Positions 10,792 to 22,793 of a DNA stretch of 64,000 nucleotides are shown one piece after another. The notes below the pieces were generated by a model. It searched no databases and was not told the origin of the DNA. It saw only the letters and a program-made list of their open reading frames with translations. The position numbers and the translations under genes are program-made. Every line of letters starts with the position of its first letter. Positions within the stretch are counted from its first letter, which is position 1. Source of the DNA: Pseudanabaena sp. FACHB-2040 (lineage in GTDB: Bacteria > Cyanobacteriota > Cyanobacteriia > Phormidesmidales > Phormidesmidaceae); the NCBI RefSeq assembly GCF_014696715.1, contig NZ_JACJQO010000005.1, positions 248,001-312,000 on the forward strand, in the 5' to 3' direction.

Positions 10792-12147
10792 ATGCAAACT
10801 CAATGGACACCTGAACAAGTGCTGGCATTAGCACCTGATGCGGCCTCTGCCAAAAATGGCCGGGGCCTCGCGATTGGTCACAAGTGGTCTTCTTTGGGAA
10901 CGCATCAGTCAGCAGTTTGGGGCGAGTGCCAGGGCAGCGGCAAAAATCCCTACCGCACCCAGATTGACTTGAGTGAACCGGCCTTTCGCTGTAGCTGCCC
11001 CAGCCGCAAATTTCCCTGCAAGCACGGCTTGGCGTTGTTTCTGCTGCTGGCTGAGCAGTCCTCGGGATTTGCAGAGCAGGAACCGCCAGATTGGGTAGCT
11101 GAGTGGCTTTTGAGCCGAACCCAACGAAGTCAAAAACAGGCCCAAAAAGAAACCCAACCAAAGGAGCAGACGGCTGACCCTCAGGCTCAAGCGAAACGAG
11201 CCGCCGCCCGTCAGCAGAAGGTCAGTGCTGGCATTCAAGAATTGCGCCTTTGGCTCGAAGACCGGATACGCCAGGGATTGGCCACTTTACCGCAAGAATC
11301 CTATCAACTTTGGGACACGGTAGCGGCCCGCATGGTCGATGCTCAAGCCCCTGGGCTGGCCCGCCGTTTACGAGACTTGGCTGGAACCGTCCACAGCGGA
11401 GCAGGCTGGTGTGACGCTACCTTAGCCAGCATGAGCCAGATCTACCTCTTGCTAGAAGGATGCGATCGCATTGAAACCCTACCCCCTGAAGTACAGGCCG
11501 AGCTGCGAACTCAGATCGGCTGGGCCATCTCCCAAGAAGAGGTGCTCGCTGGAAAAGCCCATGCTGATCTGTGGCTGATAGTCGGGCAGCGGATTCAGCA
11601 AGAAGACCGTTTAAAAGTTCGCCGCACTTGGCTCTACGGGTTAGAAAGCTCAACCTCGGCGATGCTGCTCGATTTTGCCCACGGTCAGCAGCCCTTTGAG
11701 CAAACCCTGCTGCCGGGAACCTGCTTAGAAGCAGAACTGGTTTTCTACCCCAGTGCCTATCCTCTACGGGCTTTAGTCAAAACACGCCGGGAATCGGTGC
11801 CGCTGTCTAAGAGCCCACCAGGATATGCCGGAATAGAAGATGCGATCGCTTCGCTGACCGGTCAGGTCGCATCCTATAGCCAAGCCTATGCCGCCTGTCC
11901 TTGGCTGGAGCAGTTTCCCCTGCTGCTGCAGGCGGTTGTGCCGCTGCGAGATGGAGAACGCTGGCTGCTGCGAGACGCTCAAGGATTAGTCTTGCCTTTG
12001 CTGAGTCGGCTAAAACCTCAGCAAGGCTGGCAACTTCTGGCACTCAGCGGAGGTCATCCCCTCACTCTATTTGGTGAATGGAATGGGACGGAACTGCTGC
12101 CATTAAGCGTTTGGGTAGAGGAGGCATTTTATGGGTTGGCAAGCTGA
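10792..12147 (+). CDS. SWIM zinc-finger protein
   Basis: This 451-residue protein has an N-terminal SWIM-type zinc finger of pattern CxCx6CxH: Cys67, Cys69, Cys76 and His78, within FRCSCPSRKFPCKHGLAL. A charged Gln/Lys-rich linker follows (about residues 107-143), then a mainly alpha-helical region. SWIM domains bind zinc and usually mediate DNA or protein contacts. It is the first gene of the five-gene operon, and its end overlaps the next gene by 17 bp. Its partnership with a MoxR ATPase and a VWA protein suggests a role in that machine (inference). The specific target is unknown. Confidence 0.88.
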   Translation: MQTQWTPEQVLALAPDAASAKNGRGLAIGHKWSSLGTHQSAVWGECQGSGKNPYRTQIDLSEPAFRCSCPSRKFPCKHGLALFLLLAEQSSGFAEQEPPDWVAEWLLSRTQRSQKQAQKETQPKEQTADPQAQAKRAAARQQKVSAGIQELRLWLEDRIRQGLATLPQESYQLWDTVAARMVDAQAPGLARRLRDLAGTVHSGAGWCDATLASMSQIYLLLEGCDRIETLPPEVQAELRTQIGWAISQEEVLAGKAHADLWLIVGQRIQQEDRLKVRRTWLYGLESSTSAMLLDFAHGQQPFEQTLLPGTCLEAELVFYPSAYPLRALVKTRRESVPLSKSPPGYAGIEDAIASLTGQVASYSQAYAACPWLEQFPLLLQAVVPLRDGERWLLRDAQGLVLPLLSRLKPQQGWQLLALSGGHPLTLFGEWNGTELLPLSVWVEEAFYGLAS

Positions 12148-13696
12148 TTCTCCCTGGCAGGCGGTTGTTTCTGCAGCCCTGTTGGGCACTGAGCGGCAGC
12201 CCTTCACTTCCCCCACTGCACCGGGAAAACTGGGGCAGCTACTCGCGCAGTTAACCTCCCATGCACCAGAATCTGCGCTGTTGACAGCGGCTGCTGCCCT
12301 TTCGCTGCATCAGCGGGCTGGGTGGTTTCCTGAAAACTATTCAGGTTCAGCGCCAGCACCCTGCAGCCTTGATGACTTGCCTCGCTGCAGTACCCGTGCA
12401 GGTCGATTTCTTCAGCAAATGCTTCAACGACAGTACTCACCCGTTTTGCCAGAATGGCTTGGACTGGCAACCCAGCTAGGGCAACGAGTTCCCGACATCT
12501 ATCTGCCCCAACTGCTGAACCTGGGCCAGCAACAGCGAGACTTACGCAGCCTCATCCTGCCAGTTTTGGGACAGCGGGGCCGCTGGTTAGCAGCTCAAAA
12601 CTTAGACTGGAGCTATGCGGTCGAGGTTGCTACTGAAGCAGATTGGGAAACGGGATCTCAGGCCGCACGGTTGCTATATCTAAAGGAACTGCGCTCTCAA
12701 GATCCAGAGCGAGCCCGAGAATTGCTGGCGGCGACCTGGAGCCACGAACCCGCCAGCGATCGCACCCAATTCCTCGAAACCTTTCGCACTGGCTTAAGTC
12801 TGGCAGATGAGCCTTTTCTAGAGGAAGCCCTCACAGATCGCAGTAAGGAAGTGCGCCGCACTGCCGCCGATCTGTTGGCCAGCCTACCCGAATCTCGCCT
12901 GTGTCAACGCTTGGCTGAGCAGGTTCAGCAGCATATCTTTCTCAACCCGACTCAGGTTCCTACTCTGACCGTTCAGCTACCAGACTCCCTCAATCCGGCT
13001 CTGATTCACGACGGGATTGAACCCAAGCCCAGTCAGTTTGTCGCCACACAGCTAGGCGAAAAAGCCTGGTGGCTGCTGCAAATGATCGGAGCCACTCCCC
13101 TCAGCTTCTGGAGCGAGACTTGGAAGATCCCCCCTGCAGAAATCGTCGGACACGCTAAAGACCACGAGTGGGAAGCCGTCTTGCTAGAGGGCTGGGCACT
13201 TGCAGCAAAACGGCAGCAAAATGCCGACTGGGTGCAAGCTTTATTAGGAATTTGGCTGGCGGAAGGAGTAGTCAGAACCCCTGTGCTGCCGGACGTGAGG
13301 CTAGATAGCCTGCTAAACATTCTTTCCTTTAATCAGCAAAGTGCCGTTTTGGTGGACCTTCTCAAATCTGGGCCGGGCAAGGTCAATGATTTTCTTACCC
13401 TCTCCCTTTTGCGTAGCCGGGATGGTTGGAGTCTGAAGCTGGCAGAAACCGTGCTGGATCACCTTGAAGATTACCTTTCTCACCAAAATCCCGCGATGAA
13501 TCAGGCCTGGGAACTTCACGCTGCCTTGAAGGAATTTGCTCGGGTCATCCCAATTGGGCTGCTGCCGAGAGCAGTTCAGCTGCAGGAGGGGCTGCCTCCA
13601 GATTCACCTTGGGCTGCCAGCGTTAGAGAGTTCTTAGCGCTATTGAGATTCCGGCAGAAGATGGTGCAGGCCTTTGAGGTGACAGACAGCGGTTAG
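12131..13696 (+). CDS. DUF5691-like helical protein of the SWIM-MoxR-VWA operon
   Basis: This 521-residue protein starts with WQAVVSAALLGTERQPF, the opening I associate with DUF5691 proteins that are neighbours of SWIM and MoxR genes. The rest is Leu/Gln-rich and helical. A central stretch (about residues 185-265, with DPERARELLAATW, EPFLEEALTDRSKEVRRTAADLLASLP) reads like HEAT-type repeats. No catalytic motif or membrane segment is visible. It overlaps the SWIM gene by 17 bp, so the two products are probably made together and may form a complex. A scaffold role is inference. Confidence 0.8.
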   Translation: MGWQADSPWQAVVSAALLGTERQPFTSPTAPGKLGQLLAQLTSHAPESALLTAAAALSLHQRAGWFPENYSGSAPAPCSLDDLPRCSTRAGRFLQQMLQRQYSPVLPEWLGLATQLGQRVPDIYLPQLLNLGQQQRDLRSLILPVLGQRGRWLAAQNLDWSYAVEVATEADWETGSQAARLLYLKELRSQDPERARELLAATWSHEPASDRTQFLETFRTGLSLADEPFLEEALTDRSKEVRRTAADLLASLPESRLCQRLAEQVQQHIFLNPTQVPTLTVQLPDSLNPALIHDGIEPKPSQFVATQLGEKAWWLLQMIGATPLSFWSETWKIPPAEIVGHAKDHEWEAVLLEGWALAAKRQQNADWVQALLGIWLAEGVVRTPVLPDVRLDSLLNILSFNQQSAVLVDLLKSGPGKVNDFLTLSLLRSRDGWSLKLAETVLDHLEDYLSHQNPAMNQAWELHAALKEFARVIPIGLLPRAVQLQEGLPPDSPWAASVREFLALLRFRQKMVQAFEVTDSG

Positions 13697-13751
13697 CGCG
13701 CCCCTGAACCAGACAATCTCTCCCACCTTTAACGCAATTCAGTCTTAAACA

Positions 13752-14876
13752 ATGGCAACCCCAAAATCTAAAGCGACTAGTTCCGCAGTCCAGTCACCCA
13801 ATGCTCTCCTGCGAGAGCACGCCGAGCAGCAGTTTGCTCACGAGTTAGAAGAGCTGACAAAGGCAGACACCCGCCAGCGGCCCCCCAACTGGAAGCTTTC
13901 TCCCTGGGCTGTCTCCCTGTATCTGCTGGGCGGTACCCTGGAAAACGGTTTCGAGATATCGCCTAAGTACATTGGCAATCAGCGGCTAATGGAAGTTGCG
14001 ATCGCAACTCTAGCCACCGACCGCGCGCTGCTGCTCTACGGCGTTCCCGGCACCGCCAAATCCTGGGTATCAGAACACCTAGCGGCGGCAATCTCTGGAG
14101 ATTCAACCCGGCTGATTCAAGGAACAGCAGGCACCAGCGAAGAAGCCATCCGCTACGGCTGGAACTATGCTCGCCTGCTGGCAGAGGGGCCATCGATGGA
14201 GGCGCTAGTCACCAGTCCCATGATGCGGGCCATGTCAGAGGGCCGCATTGCTCGGGTCGAAGAGTTGACCCGCATTCCCTCAGATGTGCAGGACACGCTG
14301 ATCACCGTGCTCTCTGAGAAGACCTTGCCCATTCCCGAGCTGAACACCGAAGTTCAGGCAGCCAAGGGATTCAACGTCATTGCCACGGCAAACAACCGTG
14401 ACCGAGGGGTGAATGAACTCTCCAGCGCGCTCAAACGCCGCTTCAACACAGTAATTCTGCCTGTACCTGACACTATGGAGGCTGAGGTAACCATTGTTCA
14501 ACAGCGGGTAACTAGCTTGGGGCGGGCTCTGGAGCTGCCTGCAGAAGTTCCCGCCCTGGAAGAAATTCAGCGAGTGGTCACCATCTTTCGAGAGCTGCGC
14601 AATGGAGTCACGATCGACGGCAAAACCAAGCTCAAGTCTCCTACCGGCACTCTCAGCCCAGCCGAAGCGATCTCAGTGGTGAATAGCGGCATGGCCCTTT
14701 CTGCCCACTTTGGCGATGGCTCGCTCAACGCTAGCGACCTAATCTCTGGCCTGGTCGGCGCAGTGGTCAAAGACCCAGTTCAAGATCAGGTGGTCTGGAA
14801 GGAATACCTGGAAACCGTGGTCAAAGAACGGGATGGGTGGAAAGACCTGTACCGGGCCAGTCGGGAAATGCTCTAG
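13752..14876 (+). CDS. MoxR-type AAA+ ATPase
   Basis: This 374-residue ATPase has Walker A GVPGTAKS at residues 97-104, a Walker B region where the usual DE pair reads EE (ARVEELTRIP, about 167-176), sensor 1 ATANN (211-215) and an arginine-finger segment ALKRRFN (226-232). MoxR proteins act with VWA-domain partners as chaperones that mature or remodel a target, sometimes by inserting metal cofactors. Here the VWA partner is two genes downstream. The following DUF5682-like gene starts 10 bp after the stop. The Asp-to-Glu change in Walker B is conservative. Confidence 0.92.
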   Translation: MATPKSKATSSAVQSPNALLREHAEQQFAHELEELTKADTRQRPPNWKLSPWAVSLYLLGGTLENGFEISPKYIGNQRLMEVAIATLATDRALLLYGVPGTAKSWVSEHLAAAISGDSTRLIQGTAGTSEEAIRYGWNYARLLAEGPSMEALVTSPMMRAMSEGRIARVEELTRIPSDVQDTLITVLSEKTLPIPELNTEVQAAKGFNVIATANNRDRGVNELSSALKRRFNTVILPVPDTMEAEVTIVQQRVTSLGRALELPAEVPALEEIQRVVTIFRELRNGVTIDGKTKLKSPTGTLSPAEAISVVNSGMALSAHFGDGSLNASDLISGLVGAVVKDPVQDQVVWKEYLETVVKERDGWKDLYRASREML

Positions 14877-14885
14877 GAGCCCACC

Positions 14886-17174
14886 ATGTCGGTTCATATT
14901 TTTGGCATTCGTCATCATGGTCCTGGATCGGCCCGGAGTTTGTGTCAGGCATTAGACGCGCTGCAGCCAGACATTGTGCTGGTAGAGGGGCCGCCCGATG
15001 CTCAGGCGGCGCTGCCCTTGCTAGTGCATTCGCAGATGCGGCCCCCAGTAGCGCTGTTGGTCTATGCTCCAGACAATCCTCAGCAGGCGGTTTACTACCC
15101 TTTTGCTGTCTTTTCGCCGGAGTGGCAGGCCATTCGCTACGGTCTGCAGCAGCAAATTCCGGTTCGCTTTATGGACTTGCCCCAGGCCCATCGCTTTGCC
15201 TTGAGTCAGGCGGCTGAATCGGAGGAATCTAAACAGCAAGAGACTGAGGTTCAGGAGACAGAAGCGGTAGACGCTGCTGGAGCGACCCATCCTCCAGCCT
15301 ATCGAACTGACCCCTTGAGTCTGCTGGCCCAAGCCGCAGGGTATGGCGACGGTGAACGCTGGTGGGAACACTTGGTCGAACAGCGCCAAGACAGCACTGA
15401 ACTATTTGCAGCCATCTTGGCAGCGATGACGGTGCTGCGAACGGAGGTGAAGGAAGAGGTTGCCTGGGCAGATCCCCTAGAAGCCTATCGAGAAGCCTAC
15501 ATGCGCAAAACCCTTCGCGAGGCTCAAAAAGGTGGTTTTGAAAGAATTGCTGTGGTCTGCGGCGCATGGCACGCCCCGGCGCTTGCCCAAATGCCTCCGG
15601 CTAAGGAAGATAACGCCCTGCTAAAAGGACTGCCCAAGTGCAAGGTCGAGGCTACCTGGGTGCCCTGGACCTATGGCCATCTGCTGATGAGCAGCGGCTA
15701 CGGAGCCGGAATCGAGTCTCCCGGCTGGTATCACCACCTGTGGAAACAGGGGGAGAAGAGGCAAAAAGACAACTCGACTGCTAATAGCTCTATTCGCTGG
15801 ATGACTAAGGTGGCGCGGCTGTTGCGATCGCAAGATCTCGATGCCTCCTCCGCCAGCGTTATTGAAGCGGTGCGCCTAGCTGAAACTCTCGCAGCTTTGC
15901 GAGATCTCCCCCTCCCCGGCTTATCTGAACTCAACGAAGCGACCCAAACCGTCCTTTGCTTTGGCGACGCTCTCCCCATGCGGCTGATCCACAGGCAGCT
16001 CATCGTGGGGGAACGGCTGGGTCAGGTGCCTGATGAAACGCCGATGGTGCCACTTCAGCAAGATCTGCAGCGACAGCAAAAGCGCCTGCGGCTAAAGCCC
16101 GAAGCCAATGAGAGACTGCTGGATCTGGATTTGCGCAAGCCTGGAGATCGAGAGCGATCGCACCTCCTGCATCGGCTCACCCTTCTCAACCTACCCTGGG
16201 GACAGCCCCAGTCAGCGGGCAACACCAAAGGTACGTTCCGCGAGTCTTGGCGCATGCAGTGGCAGCCGGAGTTTGCCGTTCGCCTGATCGAAGCAGGCAT
16301 TTGGGGCAACACAATTGAAATTGCGGCCACTGCTCGAACGTGCGATCGGGCGAACAAAGCCGATCTGCCAATCCTCACTCAACTGATTGATCAGACCCTC
16401 TTGGCCGAGCTGCCCCAGGCCATCAACCATCTGATGAATCGCCTACAGTCAGAAGCCGCGCTTGCTAGCGACATCACCCACCTGATGTCAGCCCTGCCGC
16501 CTTTGGTCAATGTAGTGCGTTACGGCACAGTGCGCCAGTTTGAAACCGAGGTCATCGGTCATGTTGTAGAGGGGTTAATCACCCGCATTTGCATTGGGTT
16601 GCCGGTTGCAGCAGCTTCCCTGGATGACGAGGCAGCGGCCACTCTCTACTCTCTGATAATTTCAGTGCATGGGGCCATAGGTTTACTCCAAAACGCAGAA
16701 GCCCTCACAATGTGGCAGGGAGTTTTGGCTCAGATGGCAGATCAGCAGGGCTTACACGGGCTGTTGTCTGGTCGCTGCTGTCGGCTGCTGTTTGAGGCAG
16801 GCGTATTTCAGGCAGAAGATACGGCCCGTCGTTTGGGTTTGGCGCTCTCTACTGCCGCTGAACCTGCCCAAGCCGCCACCTGGATCGAGGGCTTCCTGTC
16901 TGGCAGTGGGCTATTGCTTCTGCACAATCCTGCCCTCTGGCAAGTGCTCGATCACTGGGTTGCGGGGCTGCCAGCCGATACCTTCATTGCCCTTTTGCCC
17001 CTACTACGCCGCACTTTTTCTACCTTTCCGGCTCCAGAGCGGCGTCAGATGGGTGAACGGGTCCGCCAGGGCAATGAGAACCCGCAGGTGCTGGTTCCGG
17101 CCGGTGAGTTTGATTGCGATCGCGCCGATGCTGTTCTTCCCTTAGTCGCTCAACTCCTGGGCCTTTCATTGTGA
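14886..17174 (+). CDS. DUF5682-like protein with TraB/TIKI/EreA-type motifs
   Basis: This 762-residue protein opens with IFGIRHHGPGS (about residues 5-15) and VLVEGPPD with Glu34. Later come RWWEHLVE (158-165), YREAYMRKTLREA (201-213) and VVCGAWHAPAL with His229. The order His motif, Glu, ERNxxM-like helix, His resembles the metal-dependent hydrolase superfamily of TraB, TIKI, ChaN and EreA proteins. The remaining 500 residues are helical and lack recognisable motifs. It lies 9 bp after the MoxR gene and 10 bp before the VWA gene, so it belongs to the same machine. Peptidase or esterase activity is inference; family naming rests on memory. Confidence 0.82.
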   Translation: MSVHIFGIRHHGPGSARSLCQALDALQPDIVLVEGPPDAQAALPLLVHSQMRPPVALLVYAPDNPQQAVYYPFAVFSPEWQAIRYGLQQQIPVRFMDLPQAHRFALSQAAESEESKQQETEVQETEAVDAAGATHPPAYRTDPLSLLAQAAGYGDGERWWEHLVEQRQDSTELFAAILAAMTVLRTEVKEEVAWADPLEAYREAYMRKTLREAQKGGFERIAVVCGAWHAPALAQMPPAKEDNALLKGLPKCKVEATWVPWTYGHLLMSSGYGAGIESPGWYHHLWKQGEKRQKDNSTANSSIRWMTKVARLLRSQDLDASSASVIEAVRLAETLAALRDLPLPGLSELNEATQTVLCFGDALPMRLIHRQLIVGERLGQVPDETPMVPLQQDLQRQQKRLRLKPEANERLLDLDLRKPGDRERSHLLHRLTLLNLPWGQPQSAGNTKGTFRESWRMQWQPEFAVRLIEAGIWGNTIEIAATARTCDRANKADLPILTQLIDQTLLAELPQAINHLMNRLQSEAALASDITHLMSALPPLVNVVRYGTVRQFETEVIGHVVEGLITRICIGLPVAAASLDDEAAATLYSLIISVHGAIGLLQNAEALTMWQGVLAQMADQQGLHGLLSGRCCRLLFEAGVFQAEDTARRLGLALSTAAEPAQAATWIEGFLSGSGLLLLHNPALWQVLDHWVAGLPADTFIALLPLLRRTFSTFPAPERRQMGERVRQGNENPQVLVPAGEFDCDRADAVLPLVAQLLGLSL

Positions 17175-17184
17175 GCTGCTGGCT

Positions 17185-18393
17185 ATGACTAACTCCCCCT
17201 CTCAAGAACGACTTCGGCGCTGGCGGCTCATCCTAGGCGGTGGCGCTGCCGATGGCATCTGCGGCCAGGATGGTGACCTGGAGACAGACGGGTTCACCCT
17301 GGAAACCGCTGACCAGGGTATTGATAAGGCTTTGGAAGCGCTTTATGACTGCGATGGCCCTGGGGAGTCATCCTCTAGCGATCGCAAAGGCGGCCTCGGT
17401 GGATCTTCCCCCAAAGTTGCTCGCTGGCTGGGAGATATTCGCAGATACTTCCCCACCTCCGTCGTCAAAGTTATGCAGCAGGATGCCCTAGAGCGGCTCA
17501 ACCTGCGGCAAATGCTGCTAGAGCCAGAGCTACTAGAGGCGGTAGAACCCGATGTCCATCTAGTCTCCAATCTCTTGTCCCTCAGCAATGTAATGCCCGG
17601 TAAGACAAAGGAGACAGCCCGGATCGTCGTGCAGCGAGTGGTAGACGATTTGCTCCGCAAGCTGGAGAACCCGACCCAACAAGCCATCCTCGGCAGCCTC
17701 AACCGCGCCACCCGCAACCGCCGCCCACGCCACAACGAAATCGACTGGCATCGCACTATCCGCGCCAACCTAAAACACTACCAGCCCGACTACCGCACCA
17801 TTATTCCCGAAGTCCGGATTGGCTACGGGCGCAAGCGCTCTGCTCTAAGAGACATCATCCTCTGCGTGGATCAGAGCGGTTCAATGGCTACCTCTGTTGT
17901 CTATGCAGGCATTTTTAGTGCCGTGCTGGCCTCTCTGCCAGCCGTGCAAACCCGCCTCGTGGTCTTCGATACCGCTGTCGTCGATCTGACCGACCTACTG
18001 CAAGATCCAGTTGAAGTTTTGTTTGGTACCCAACTGGGCGGCGGCACTGATATCAACCAGGCATTGGCCTACTGCCAAAGCCTGGTGCGTCAACCCCAAG
18101 ACACCATTTTGGTGCTGATCAGCGACCTGTACGAAGGCGGCAACCAAACCGAGATGCGAAAGCGCATCAGTTCCCTCGTCTCCTCAGGCGTTCAACTGGT
18201 GACGCTGCTGGCGCTCAATGATGATGGTGCCCCCTGCTATGACCATGACAATGCTCACTTCATGGCAACGTTGGGAGTCCCAGCATTTGCCTGCACGCCT
18301 GACCTTTTCCCCGACCTAATGGCAGCCGCCATTAATCGCCAGGATTTGGGGCAGTGGGCAGCGGCGCGAGAAATTGTCACGGCCAGTCCCTAA
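17185..18393 (+). CDS. VWA (CoxE-like) protein with complete MIDAS
   Basis: This 402-residue protein has an acidic, Gly/Ser-rich N-terminus, a helical middle and a C-terminal von Willebrand A domain from about residue 222. The metal-ion-dependent adhesion site is complete: DQSGS at 229-233, Thr288 within GGGTDIN, and Asp314 in LISDLYEGG. VWA proteins of this type pair with MoxR ATPases and present substrate through the bound Mg2+. No signal peptide or membrane segment is seen, so the protein is cytoplasmic. It is the last gene of the five-gene operon. No clear terminator follows. Confidence 0.92.
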   Translation: MTNSPSQERLRRWRLILGGGAADGICGQDGDLETDGFTLETADQGIDKALEALYDCDGPGESSSSDRKGGLGGSSPKVARWLGDIRRYFPTSVVKVMQQDALERLNLRQMLLEPELLEAVEPDVHLVSNLLSLSNVMPGKTKETARIVVQRVVDDLLRKLENPTQQAILGSLNRATRNRRPRHNEIDWHRTIRANLKHYQPDYRTIIPEVRIGYGRKRSALRDIILCVDQSGSMATSVVYAGIFSAVLASLPAVQTRLVVFDTAVVDLTDLLQDPVEVLFGTQLGGGTDINQALAYCQSLVRQPQDTILVLISDLYEGGNQTEMRKRISSLVSSGVQLVTLLALNDDGAPCYDHDNAHFMATLGVPAFACTPDLFPDLMAAAINRQDLGQWAAAREIVTASP

Positions 18394-19187: not shown

Positions 19188-19637
19188 TCAATCATCATCC
19201 TTGACCCAGACGTAACGGGCAGGCTCAAACTCTAGATGCCGCTTAAAGTCGTGAAGCGGCTTGAGGACATCATCTAGGGACTCAGGGTTCTGAACTCCCT
19301 CCTTCCAAGTTTTGCGATCTAAGGTGCCCACGACTAAATACTCATTGCCGACTAGGTTGGGATAGTACTGCAGGGATATCTTCTTAAGTAGCCGATCGAG
19401 TTCGTCTTTGTGAGCAATCAGCAGGTCGCAGTTGGGGCAGTAGCGACAGGTTTTATTCAAACTCACCGGCTGAGCAGGTTTGATGAGAATCATCAGCGGC
19501 TTTTTTCGCAGCTTAGTTGTGCTGTCGCACTTAGGACAGCGGGTGAAGCGGGCATCGCTGTGAGGATTGAGGAAGAAGTCGTACTGAGGCGGTTGATGGC
19601 CGAAGTACTTTGTTTTTTTACCCTGTTTCTTTCCCAT
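19188..19637 (-). CDS. Zinc-ribbon-like hypothetical protein
   Basis: This 149-residue protein has a basic N-terminus (MGKKQGKKTKYFG) and two pairs of cysteines, CPKC (about residue 34) and CPNC (about residue 67, preceded by another Cys), spaced as in a zinc ribbon. The C-terminal half contains an EYLVVGTLDRKTWKEG segment and an acidic end. A short basic protein with a zinc ribbon could bind nucleic acid, but this is inference. It is divergent from the next gene, with about 50 bp between them. Confidence 0.75.
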   Translation of the reverse strand: MGKKQGKKTKYFGHQPPQYDFFLNPHSDARFTRCPKCDSTTKLRKKPLMILIKPAQPVSLNKTCRYCPNCDLLIAHKDELDRLLKKISLQYYPNLVGNEYLVVGTLDRKTWKEGVQNPESLDDVLKPLHDFKRHLEFEPARYVWVKDDD

Positions 19638-19688: not shown

Positions 19689-21140
19689 ATGGCTAGTTCA
19701 CCACCGCTAGCGAAATTACTGGCAAAGCGCAGCCGAGAAGATCTGCTGGAAATGATTGAGCAGATGGTGCAGCGCCATCCTGATTTGATTGCCGTGGTAG
19801 ATGCGCCTCAGACCCCAACCATCGGTCGGCAACCGGATCTCGCTAAATATCAGCGCCAAGTGGAACGGATCTTTCAAGGCTCCGAGATGCGCCCAATGGT
19901 AGCTGGACTAGAAGCTCTGGCGGGTCACGGTGAACGGCTCAGTGAAAGCAGCGACTGGATTCATGCGGGGGATGTGTATCACCTACTGCTGGAAGCCGCC
20001 AATGAACACTACGACGACAGCGCGTTGGAGGTTGACTACAACGGTGAGGTTGGCTGCGTGATTCAAGAGATTGCCGAAGGGCTGAGTGATTGCCTCAAAC
20101 GCGCCAAAGGTCTTGATGCAGATCGCCGCCGGGCCTGGATAGAAACCCTGTTTAACGCCGTTTTGAAAGACATTGAGCTGGGTGGTATAGATTATGCCTA
20201 TTTCGCTAGAGATACTGTTCTATTTCACACCACTGATGAAGATTGGGTCTGGCTGGAGCCACGGATTCAATCGGAAATTCAGAATGCGCTCGTACGGAAG
20301 TCCTTTGGCTCTTGGGCCCGTGAGCGCCTGGTCAATCTGCTTGCAGAACGGGCCAACCATAGCGGCAAAGCCCAAATGGCAGAGGAGATTATCCTCGAAC
20401 TAGGAACACCTGAGCAGCGGGCCTTTTTCCATTTGCAACACCACGATCTGGAGACGGCGGTTGAGATCGCACGCGTTCACTTCAAGTCCCTGCCAGGGTT
20501 AGTCATTCAGTTTGCCGATAGTCTCTTGCAGGCCAATGCCCCAGATCTGGCCCTAGAGTTTGTGCAGGAGTGTACCCAAGACGGCCGCCACAGCTATGAG
20601 GAATGGTTGGCAAAGTTCTACAAAAACCACGGTCAACCAGAACAATTTGTCGCAGCCCAGATTGACTTGCTCAAGACCTGCTTTACCCTTAAGGGCTACC
20701 GAGATTTGCAGGCTCAGGCAACGCCTTTGGGAAAGTGGAAATCGCTGCGTCAGGCGCTGCTCTCAGCATTGGAAGCGCAGAAGAGTTATCGCTCTCTCAT
20801 TGATGTGGCGCTGCTAGAACAGGACTGGGACTCGGCACTGTGCTATCTCAAAAAGATGAGCCCTTGGAACAGGGAATCCCATCAGGCGCGAGTGGCTGAA
20901 AAAATTCAAGCTGATCGGCCTGAGGTTGCGATCGCACTTTGCCAAGAACTCATTCAAGCTGCCATCAACCAACGTGGGCGAGACAACTATCGCAGAGCAG
21001 TCCAGCATCTCCAAGTCACCCAACGCCTTTATAAACGACTGCGCCAGGAAAGCGAGTTTCAACAGTATGTGCAGAGCCTACGAACTCAACACAAGAACCT
21101 GCCCGCCCTTAAGCAGGAACTCAGCAAGGTAGGGCTTTAG
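19689..21140 (+). CDS. Helical repeat protein resembling the C-terminal part of SWIM-family proteins
   Basis: This 483-residue protein is alpha-helical with TPR/HEAT-like character. The C-terminal part (IQAAINQRGRDNYRRAVQHL, QRLYKRLRQESEFQQYVQSL, RTQHKNLPALKQEL) matches the end of many bacterial SWIM zinc-finger proteins, but no CxCxnCxH motif is present anywhere. It may therefore be a SWIM-less version that works with a separate zinc-binding partner, such as the divergent zinc-ribbon protein. Activity is unknown. It starts with ATG at 19689 and has no obvious operon partner downstream. Confidence 0.75.
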   Translation: MASSPPLAKLLAKRSREDLLEMIEQMVQRHPDLIAVVDAPQTPTIGRQPDLAKYQRQVERIFQGSEMRPMVAGLEALAGHGERLSESSDWIHAGDVYHLLLEAANEHYDDSALEVDYNGEVGCVIQEIAEGLSDCLKRAKGLDADRRRAWIETLFNAVLKDIELGGIDYAYFARDTVLFHTTDEDWVWLEPRIQSEIQNALVRKSFGSWARERLVNLLAERANHSGKAQMAEEIILELGTPEQRAFFHLQHHDLETAVEIARVHFKSLPGLVIQFADSLLQANAPDLALEFVQECTQDGRHSYEEWLAKFYKNHGQPEQFVAAQIDLLKTCFTLKGYRDLQAQATPLGKWKSLRQALLSALEAQKSYRSLIDVALLEQDWDSALCYLKKMSPWNRESHQARVAEKIQADRPEVAIALCQELIQAAINQRGRDNYRRAVQHLQVTQRLYKRLRQESEFQQYVQSLRTQHKNLPALKQELSKVGL

Positions 21141-21358: not shown

Positions 21359-22555
21359 TCAAAATTCAGGTACAAAAAGTTCTCGCTTGTTCCCGGCATA
21401 GTGTTGGTAAATTACCTCAGGCGAGTTCCCTACCAGACGAGCCACATCTTTTGCGTCTAATTTTCCAGTCTCTAGAGCGTGTGTTATGAAGGTGTGGCGG
21501 GTTTGATAAACTTTGCGGTATTCAATACCAAGACCTTTGAGAACGGCTTTCCACGTTCGGTTTCTGAAATTATTGAAATCAATCGGCTTTCCCTCTGGAG
21601 AGGGAAAAACAAGATCTTCCCCGTTTACATTCTCTGGCTTGATACTTCTAAGCAAGTTTCTAAGCTTCTCGTTGCAAGGGAAGCGACGTCTTTCCTGGGT
21701 TTTCAGGCCCTTTCGAACCTTTCTACCTGAATCGGTACCAATTAAAGCTTGTTCAAAAACAACTTGGCTACAGTCTTCAGCAACGTGCTTCCACTGCAGC
21801 GCGACTGCTTCAGAGGGACGGCAGCCAGTGGAAAACAGAAATGTAATCAATGGGGCATAACGGCTGTGCTTGAAAGCCGACTTGTGAGGGCAAAACTGAT
21901 CTGTCTCAATAGCTTTTAGAATGGCATCTCGTTCTTCTATCGAGAACGGACTGATATCACTGAACCCTTCTCCTCTAGAAGCTTTCGGCGACTTAATCTC
22001 TGTAGCCATCCCCAAGAAGGGGTTCTGGGCTATGGAACCTGCCTTCACTGCTAAGTCGCAGCAGGCACTTAGGCGAGTGATGAAACGCTTAGCAGAATTT
22101 AGGGGTATTGTCTTCAAAATATAGTCTCGAATCCTGGCAGCATCACTTAGCTCATGACTCGGAAGCTTCTTGATGTAGCCCGTGTACACCCCGTAGGTGT
22201 ACTTCATAGTGTTTTCGGAGCACTGTGGGCGTTTGAACTCAATGAACTTCTCCCAGAGGTCAACTAGCAAAGGCTCGGGTGTAACCTTGGGTGTAATGTC
22301 AGGTAAAGCAGTACTGAGAGCAGTCTGGGGCTTGTACTTAGCAAGGGTTGCGTCAAAGTTTCCTGAGACAATGTCTAGCTCTATCTGGCGAGCTTTTGCT
22401 TTTGCCGCTTTGCGGTTGATTTTGGTATCAGGCAACCCCAAGCTTAGATAATGCCGTTTCTCGCCGTATCTGAATCTAAGCTGTAGTCGACCATTAGAAT
22501 TAATGACTTGAACAGACCCTTTTGAAGCCTTTTGCTGCGGAGTATCAGAATACAT
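21359..22555 (-). CDS. Tyrosine-type site-specific integrase
   Basis: This 398-residue recombinase has an N-terminal arm-binding region (QVINSNGRLQLRFRYGEKRH, resembling DUF3596), a core-binding helical domain and a catalytic domain with Arg246 (STGCRPSEA), Arg353-His354 (YQTRHTF) and the nucleophile Tyr386 (VIYQHYAG). The usual first His of HxxR is Tyr350 and the LGH motif reads VGN, as happens in divergent members. It is encoded at the 3' side of a tRNA-Gly gene, the classical integration setting. No excisionase or cargo genes are evident between the flanking 17-bp repeats. It is probably functional, since all key residues are present. Confidence 0.92.
   Translation of the reverse strand: MYSDTPQQKASKGSVQVINSNGRLQLRFRYGEKRHYLSLGLPDTKINRKAAKAKARQIELDIVSGNFDATLAKYKPQTALSTALPDITPKVTPEPLLVDLWEKFIEFKRPQCSENTMKYTYGVYTGYIKKLPSHELSDAARIRDYILKTIPLNSAKRFITRLSACCDLAVKAGSIAQNPFLGMATEIKSPKASRGEGFSDISPFSIEERDAILKAIETDQFCPHKSAFKHSRYAPLITFLFSTGCRPSEAVALQWKHVAEDCSQVVFEQALIGTDSGRKVRKGLKTQERRRFPCNEKLRNLLRSIKPENVNGEDLVFPSPEGKPIDFNNFRNRTWKAVLKGLGIEYRKVYQTRHTFITHALETGKLDAKDVARLVGNSPEVIYQHYAGNKRELFVPEF
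22277..22296 (-). repeat. Two GGGTGTAA motifs within the integrase gene
   Basis: GGGTGTAA at 22277-22284 and 22289-22296 is the reverse complement of the TTACACCC motif repeated upstream and downstream of the gene. It lies in coding sequence, so it may be chance. Confidence 0.4.
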
Positions 22556-22584
22556 TGCCTGCTTAGTTCATTTGTATCGATATC

Positions 22585-22638
22585 TTACACCCGTTTTACA
22601 CCCAAAGTTACCTGAGAATACCCAAATTACACCCAAGA
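22585..22638 (+). repeat. TTACACCC repeat cluster and right 17-bp direct repeat
   Basis: Three TTACACCC motifs occur at 22585-22592, 22596-22603 and 22627-22634, just upstream of the integrase start. The last lies in the right copy of the 17-bp repeat (22622-22638). Clustered short direct repeats next to a tyrosine integrase gene commonly serve as arm-type binding sites. Confidence 0.6.
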
Positions 22639-22680
22639 TTGGATCCAAGTTAGACTTATTAGCCCTCTCCTTAGACAGCT

Positions 22681-22714
22681 AAAAGCCCCGAAAACAAGAG
22701 CTTTCGGGGCTTTT
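22681..22714 (-). terminator. Intrinsic terminator of tRNA-Gly (bidirectional)
   Basis: A perfect 13-bp stem, AAAAGCCCCGAAA (22681-22693) with TTTCGGGGCTTTT (22702-22714), and an 8-nt loop form a GC-cored hairpin with T tracts in both directions. It lies just past the tRNA 3' end and separates the tRNA from the integrase. Confidence 0.9.
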
Positions 22715-22721
22715 AGAATGA

Positions 22722-22793
22722 AGCGGGTGAACGGACTCGAACCGTCGACATTCAGCTTGGGAAGCTGACGTTCTACCACTGAACTACACCCGC
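22722..22793 (-). tRNA. tRNA-Gly(CCC)
   Basis: On the minus strand the acceptor stem is GCGGGTG pairing with CACCCGC. The D-loop contains AGTGGTAGA. The anticodon stem TCAGC/GCTGA closes the loop TTCCCAA with anticodon CCC, which reads GGG glycine. The T arm GACGG-TTCGAGT-CCGTT follows. The 3' CCA is not encoded. A perfect terminator follows, and an integrase gene lies beyond it. Confidence 0.95.

Follow-up and report, generated by a model that had tools for sequence, protein, structure and literature searches.

A five-gene operon of the YehL-type MoxR-VWA family in Pseudanabaena sp. FACHB-2040, with a predicted TraB/PrgY-type domain in its DUF5682 protein

In the RavA-ViaA, NorQ-NorD, CoxD-CoxE and CbbQ-CbbO chaperone pairs, an AAA+ ATPase of the MoxR family adjoins a MIDAS-bearing VWA protein. 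Larger assemblies are found in the MoxR-vWA-VMAP/iSTAND/beta-propeller systems, which combine MoxR and a CoxE-type vWA with further partners (Kaur et al., 2020; PMC7159879). Among the named subfamilies of MoxR is YehL (PMC3893208), and E. coli K-12 carries the row yehI (DUF4132), yehK, yehL (MoxR), yehM, yehP (VWA) and yehQ (SWIM). Our search of the open-access literature found no function for yehLMPQ, and a search on DUF5682 and DUF5691 found no paper. E. coli DGF-298 tolerates deletion of the whole yehI-yehQ region (PMC10652928). The neighbors of yehL include the molR genes, whose name refers to the use of molybdate (Lee et al., 1990, as cited in PMC8533742 and PMC4245954), and molR shows a synthetic growth defect with lepA (PMC4245954).

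The window, the 64,000-nucleotide stretch of Pseudanabaena sp. FACHB-2040 DNA that was analyzed, contains a five-gene operon that is a new arrangement of the known YehL-type MoxR-VWA family, not a new kind of system. It resembles the four described pairs in that MoxR adjoins a MIDAS-bearing VWA protein matching VWA_CoxE, a likeness of gene linkage and motifs only, and it differs from them in adding three conserved subunits. Like the systems of Kaur et al., it joins MoxR and a CoxE-type vWA to further partners, but Pfam and PADLOC scans of its five proteins revealed neither a VMAP, STAND or propeller domain above cut-off nor any variable effector. The useful additions of this work are the predicted TraB-type assignment of DUF5682 and the synteny of the operon across phyla.

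The operon and its MoxR-VWA core

A preliminary description of this region, made from the sequence, listed five consecutive plus-strand genes, for a zinc-finger protein, a helical repeat protein, an AAA+ ATPase, a putative hydrolase and a VWA partner, and proposed an HMM search of each product. All five ORFs are present with their motifs intact, and Pfam gave a match for every one. The first gene (10792-12147) encodes a SWIM zinc-finger protein of 451 aa (PF04434, 7.8e-6), and the second (12131-13696) a DUF5691 protein of 521 aa (PF18944, 1.2e-140). These are followed by a 374-aa MoxR AAA+ ATPase (13752-14876; AAA_5, 4.1e-38), a 762-aa DUF5682 protein of the YehM family (14886-17174; PF18934, 5.2e-297) and a 402-aa CoxE-like VWA protein of the YehP family (17185-18393; PF05762, VWA_CoxE, 9.1e-54). 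The SWIM and DUF5691 genes overlap by 17 nt, and the remaining junctions are gaps of 55, 9 and 10 nt. Promoter and terminator scans did no better than on shuffled sequence.

The core of the operon, described beforehand as a MoxR-VWA pair with a complete MIDAS and intact catalytic motifs, bears out that description, with the residues concerned invariant or nearly so in homologues. In MoxR, the Walker A motif GVPGTAKS (14040-14063) and the Walker B acidic pair in R-V-E170-E171 (14253-14264) are conserved across the homologue alignment. The same degree of conservation, invariant or nearly so, was seen for the VWA MIDAS residues D229-Q-S231-G-S233 (17869-17883), T288 (18046-18048) and D314 (18124-18126). 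All of these motifs lie on the plus strand.

Sequence comparison places the window MoxR in the YehL subfamily of MoxR AAA+ ATPases. It is 40% identical to E. coli YehL and 18% identical to RavA, and in the tree it falls inside a 28-row clade with YehL (support 100/99), within which the E. coli-type MoxR sequences form a branch of their own. Both RavA and two other MoxR proteins found in the same genome lie outside this clade, though the exact distance to RavA means little because RavA sits on a very long branch. A search with the MoxR profile was set aside as circular for RavA, as the alignment itself included RavA. MoxR and VWA are the slowest-evolving subunits, with low divergence across phyla (73-91% for MoxR and 61-88% for VWA), and this points to a fixed, ancient client.

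Relation to the E. coli yeh cluster and conservation of gene order

The five-part arrangement had initially been called undescribed. That label has to be dropped, given that its MoxR, DUF5682 and VWA proteins belong to the family of yehL, yehM and yehP, with the window proteins 40% identical to YehL, 28% to YehM (533 alignment columns) and 36% to YehP. The three homologous genes stand in matching relative order in the E. coli cluster, and both loci encode a SWIM-finger protein. The clusters differ in that E. coli YehQ cannot be aligned beyond the SWIM finger and is placed last, and in that E. coli has DUF4132 (YehI) upstream; a control search found no DUF5691 in E. coli. We distinguish two ARRANGEMENTS: type A, to which the window belongs, and type B, which consists of MoxR-DUF5682, DUF4132, VWA and a YehQ-type SWIM protein, lacks DUF5691, and is found in E. 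coli, Iodobacter, Agrobacterium and Sinorhizobium. The window operon is assigned to type A and not to the E. coli type because its SWIM protein is of the other type and no DUF4132 was found in the Pseudanabaena sp. FACHB-2040 genome. The absence also means that DUF4132 is not obligatory for type A, even if 15 Chitinophaga loci have a DUF4132 gene downstream of a type A operon.

Gene order was examined in 79 loci taken from named genomes, 55 of which had enough flank for the count. The exact order SWIM-DUF5691-MoxR-DUF5682-VWA recurs in 43 of these 55 loci, and the layout is therefore far from chance. Chitinophaga accounts for 15 of the 43; when it is left out, the order is kept in 28 of 40. 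As the sample was seeded with the window's DUF5682, these counts measure the constancy of the partners of DUF5682, not how often the partners occur on their own. The loci come from about ten phyla, among them Cyanobacteria, Chloroflexota, Planctomycetota, Acidobacteriota, Armatimonadota, Bacteroidota, Pseudomonadota and Thermodesulfobacteriota. Further loci, in records filed as plasmids, belong to Deinococcus, Rhizobium, Methylosinus and Nonomuraea, and the exact order was also found in Deinococcus, Rhizobium and Nonomuraea.

In all 12 exceptions the genome still contains the VWA gene, mostly away from the other genes. Where DUF5691 and SWIM are missing from the locus, both were present elsewhere in seven of the eight genomes tested (as adjacent genes in six), and the sole genome without them is a MAG. 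The five proteins thus travel together even where the operon is broken. The genes that flank the operon differ between phyla, from which we conclude that the unit is self-contained. It is also patchily distributed, with 11 of 292 sampled same-phylum genomes above the cut-off. A survey of genome neighborhoods had been proposed at the outset, with failure of the five genes to co-occur elsewhere as the outcome that would count against a single functional unit; the retention of gene order across about ten phyla, together with the co-retention of dispersed partners, is instead strong comparative evidence that the five genes form one.

Several variants were noted in the course of the survey. One cyanobacterial copy has an SMI1/KNR4 (SUKH) gene between DUF5682 and VWA (L021, 12356-12961). 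In a genome of the same class, a divergent pair combines MoxR with a large protein that matches DUF5682 weakly, at 95 bits (L012, 69-4164), and could be a third subtype. The YehL-type family is also represented by MoxR-DUF5682-VWA on a gut scaffold filed, unverified, as "Bacteriophage sp." (MT835988.1, 253-4879; L128), which is probably bacterial DNA. The profile of YehI (DUF4132) is matched in E. coli by yehF and by the pseudogene yehH (L001, 4475-8270), which thus resemble fragments of DUF4132 copies arranged in tandem.

The DUF5682, SWIM and DUF5691 proteins

The TraB superfamily includes the Tiki proteases, the EreA esterases and ChaN, and some TraB/Tiki relatives are not enzymes. What is new in our analysis is the assignment of the DUF5682 N-terminus to TraB/PrgY, followed by a helical-repeat tail. 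An AlphaFold2 model of the protein (pLDDT 87) has an alpha/beta N-terminal domain and then a long helical region. The N-terminal domain (residues 1-241; 14886-15608, plus strand) was recognized by fold, by profile match and by motif conservation; the C-terminal region of mostly alpha-helical repeats (residues 427-762; 16164-17171, plus strand) was recognized in the model, with HEAT/ARM-type structures in the fold list. In VIA re-ranking of matches to the whole-protein model, the top hit was 7w5z_E over residues 1-241 (Z 9.5, rmsd 4.5 Å, 184 residues aligned, 15% identity). This chain is a TraB family protein by its PDB name, and a later paper on the complex also gives a TraB-family subunit (PMC10060162). 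The TraB match came from the VIA re-ranking only; Foldseek with the whole model returned mainly helical-repeat proteins, all with E >0.001.

Profile comparisons point in the same direction. With hhalign, the DUF5682 N-terminal profile gave probabilities of 82% (local) and 90% (global) against a combined TraB profile, and 93.5% (global) and 53% (local) against PrgY-type TraB on its own; it aligns with the PrgY-including TraB sequences along its full length. Reversed and unrelated profiles stayed below 1%, and EreA (0.1%), ChaN (2%) and GumN alone (3.2%) were also low. The positive result required PrgY-type TraB sequences and a more diverse DUF5682 profile, and shallow TraB, EreA and ChaN sets were negative. 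A PrgY-type TraB query reached 7w5z_E (E 0.0015) and a GumN-type query did not. A Pfam scan of DUF5682 gave no TraB match by sequence, and a sequence-profile search of the PDB with the DUF5682, SWIM and VWA profiles returned nothing useful.

The near-invariant motifs RH, E, RE and GxxH of the N-terminal domain are R9 H10, E34, R202 E203 and G226-x-x-H229, and D97 is conserved too. In register with TraB, G-x-R-H-H corresponds to GTaH, E34 to VE, R202 to R(D) and G226-x-x-H229 to G-x-x-H, residues that are still conserved in relatives at just 25% identity. The predicted domain shares with TraB/PrgY (Tiki) both the fold and the GxxH...E...R...GxxH pattern. It differs from PrgY-type TraB in having the long helical-repeat tail in place of the PrgY C-terminal membrane-like segments. 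On the basis of the sequence profiles and the model, we take the DUF5682 N-terminal domain to be a real but remote, divergent member of the TraB/PrgY (Tiki) group. Membership of this group makes the putative hydrolase of the preliminary description plausible, not proven, with the activity predicted from a remote match to a hydrolase-like domain. The assignment would also make yehL-yehM-yehP, a long-unexplained cluster of E. coli, testable, and offers H10, E34, R202 and H229 as candidate active-site residues for mutation.

The zinc ligands of the SWIM protein, C67-x-C69-x6-C76-x-H78 (10990-11025, plus strand), are invariant in 32 homologues, which together with the Pfam match agrees with its first reading as a zinc-finger protein. 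Its model (pLDDT 91) has an N-terminal ZSWIM-like zinc domain, a helical middle and C-terminal OB-like barrels. Residues 2-115 match ZSWIM8 from the ZSWIM8-CUL3 complex (9rwz_N; Z 9.5, 109 aligned, 4.1 Å), and residues 248-443 align mainly with OB folds (SSB, RPA and telomere proteins) at Z up to 7, a resemblance between model and structures that may just be a common arrangement. Weak HEAT matches in the Pfam scan fit the helical repeat protein of the first reading, and DUF5691 is probably a HEAT-like helical repeat. It is the fastest-evolving subunit (homologues 21-57% identical to the window protein), a rate that might fit the expectation for an adaptor.

A possible remodeling machine and its alternatives

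We favor, at a probability of about 0.5, a reading in which the operon encodes one multi-subunit YehL-type MoxR-VWA remodeling machine for one conserved client, which would also comprise an adaptor pair and a hydrolase-like subunit of the TraB type. In such a machine, the MoxR ring would hydrolyze ATP to remodel the client, and the VWA MIDAS would couple the ring to the client, by analogy with RavA-ViaA, NorQ-NorD and CoxD-CoxE. The adaptor pair that binds or presents the client could be formed by SWIM and DUF5691, the latter with its helical repeats; the client is possibly nucleic-acid-linked, given the OB-like barrels in the SWIM model. The TraB-type site of DUF5682, on its own helical scaffold, might then carry out a hydrolytic or metal-dependent step after remodeling, and overall one conserved client complex would be matured or activated. 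The role in protein maturation is suggested by other MoxR-VWA pairs; the patchy distribution of the operon and its dispensability in E. coli DGF-298 do not point to a maturation step that is essential. That DUF4132, a recurrent partner elsewhere, is missing from the window genome counts against the reading. Since the unit is common to about ten phyla, identifying the client in E. coli or a cyanobacterium would inform many bacteria; possible leads to it are the SUF genes directly upstream of the operon in Chitinophaga (one genus only), the molR-molybdate link and the molR-lepA defect.

A sharper version of this machine, which we put forward tentatively, has the MoxR-VWA motor driving DUF5682 as a TraB/Tiki-type metallo-hydrolase, while the SWIM/OB and HEAT-like adaptors choose one conserved client. 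If true, the unit would be an ATP-powered processing enzyme of a new class, widespread and also present in E. coli as YehL-YehM-YehP.

A defense or conflict system along the lines of the MoxR-vWA ternary systems (Kaur et al., 2020; PMC7159879) would have the adaptors sense an invader and the MoxR-gated DUF5682 hydrolase released as an effector. The patchy occurrence of the operon, the copies on some plasmids, one mobilizable plasmid on which the E. coli-type version adjoins a restriction-modification locus, and a marginal match of the window MoxR to the bpMoxR ternary-system profile (28.4 bits with a cut-off of 27) are all consistent with this. Against these stand the good conservation that MoxR and VWA show from phylum to phylum, with no swapping of effector domains, and the lack of a strong PADLOC match in any of the five proteins; SWIM and Yeh terms are also absent from the text of the eLife paper (PMC7159879). 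The flanking genes do not look like defense islands: a scan of 108 flanking proteins by themselves was a weak negative that showed no concentration of defense models; the commonest models matched only three members each, and these matches are probably generic kinases, because Pfam shows three protein kinases there. We consider a defense role unlikely.

Ranked below it, and doubtful, is a machine for inserting a metal, Fe-S or molybdenum cofactor, like NorQ-NorD or CoxD-CoxE, which would be a narrower form of the remodeling machine. The CoxE-like window VWA would suit this, as would the Chitinophaga operons, which lie on the same strand as, and after, the Fe-S assembly genes sufB-sufC-sufD-sufS-sufE (SUF) and a DUF59 gene (L053, 264-5861, and other loci), but the SUF adjacency is confined to that genus and no metalloenzyme recurs in the other flanks. 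The naming of molR beside yehL for molybdate use (as cited in PMC8533742 and PMC4245954) would also fit, yet this link is old, and the window genome lacks DUF4132.

A role in stress or repair linked to nucleic acids, in which the SWIM/OB-like protein would bind DNA or RNA while MoxR-VWA-DUF5682 removes or processes proteins there, seems improbable to us. The OB-fold alignments of the C-terminal half of the SWIM model speak for it, as does the partnership with DUF4132 elsewhere, depletion of DdrO being known to strongly upregulate a Deinococcus DUF4132 gene (PMC8533742; not placed near a YehL-type operon). Against it, the OB alignments stay at Z <=7, in the range of common arrangements, repair genes do not recur in the flanks, and DUF4132 is missing from the window genome.

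The surroundings of the operon in the window gave some further observations. An integrase-like ORF, assigned by eye (21359-22555, minus strand), lies beside tRNA-Gly(ccc) at 22722-22793, the two spanning 21359-22793 on the minus strand. We considered and rejected a genomic island at this tRNA around the operon; no second copy of the tRNA-Gly 3´ end was found in the window within 3 mismatches, so the limits of an island enclosing the operon cannot be set. A 483-aa ORF (19689-21140, plus strand), which has no SWIM finger of its own, matches PDC-S62, a SWIM-containing defense candidate, at 2e-7, with the match limited to the C-terminal part (445-550 of 566). A cysteine-rich protein of 149 aa (19188-19637, minus strand) weakly matches an MqsA-type antitoxin profile.
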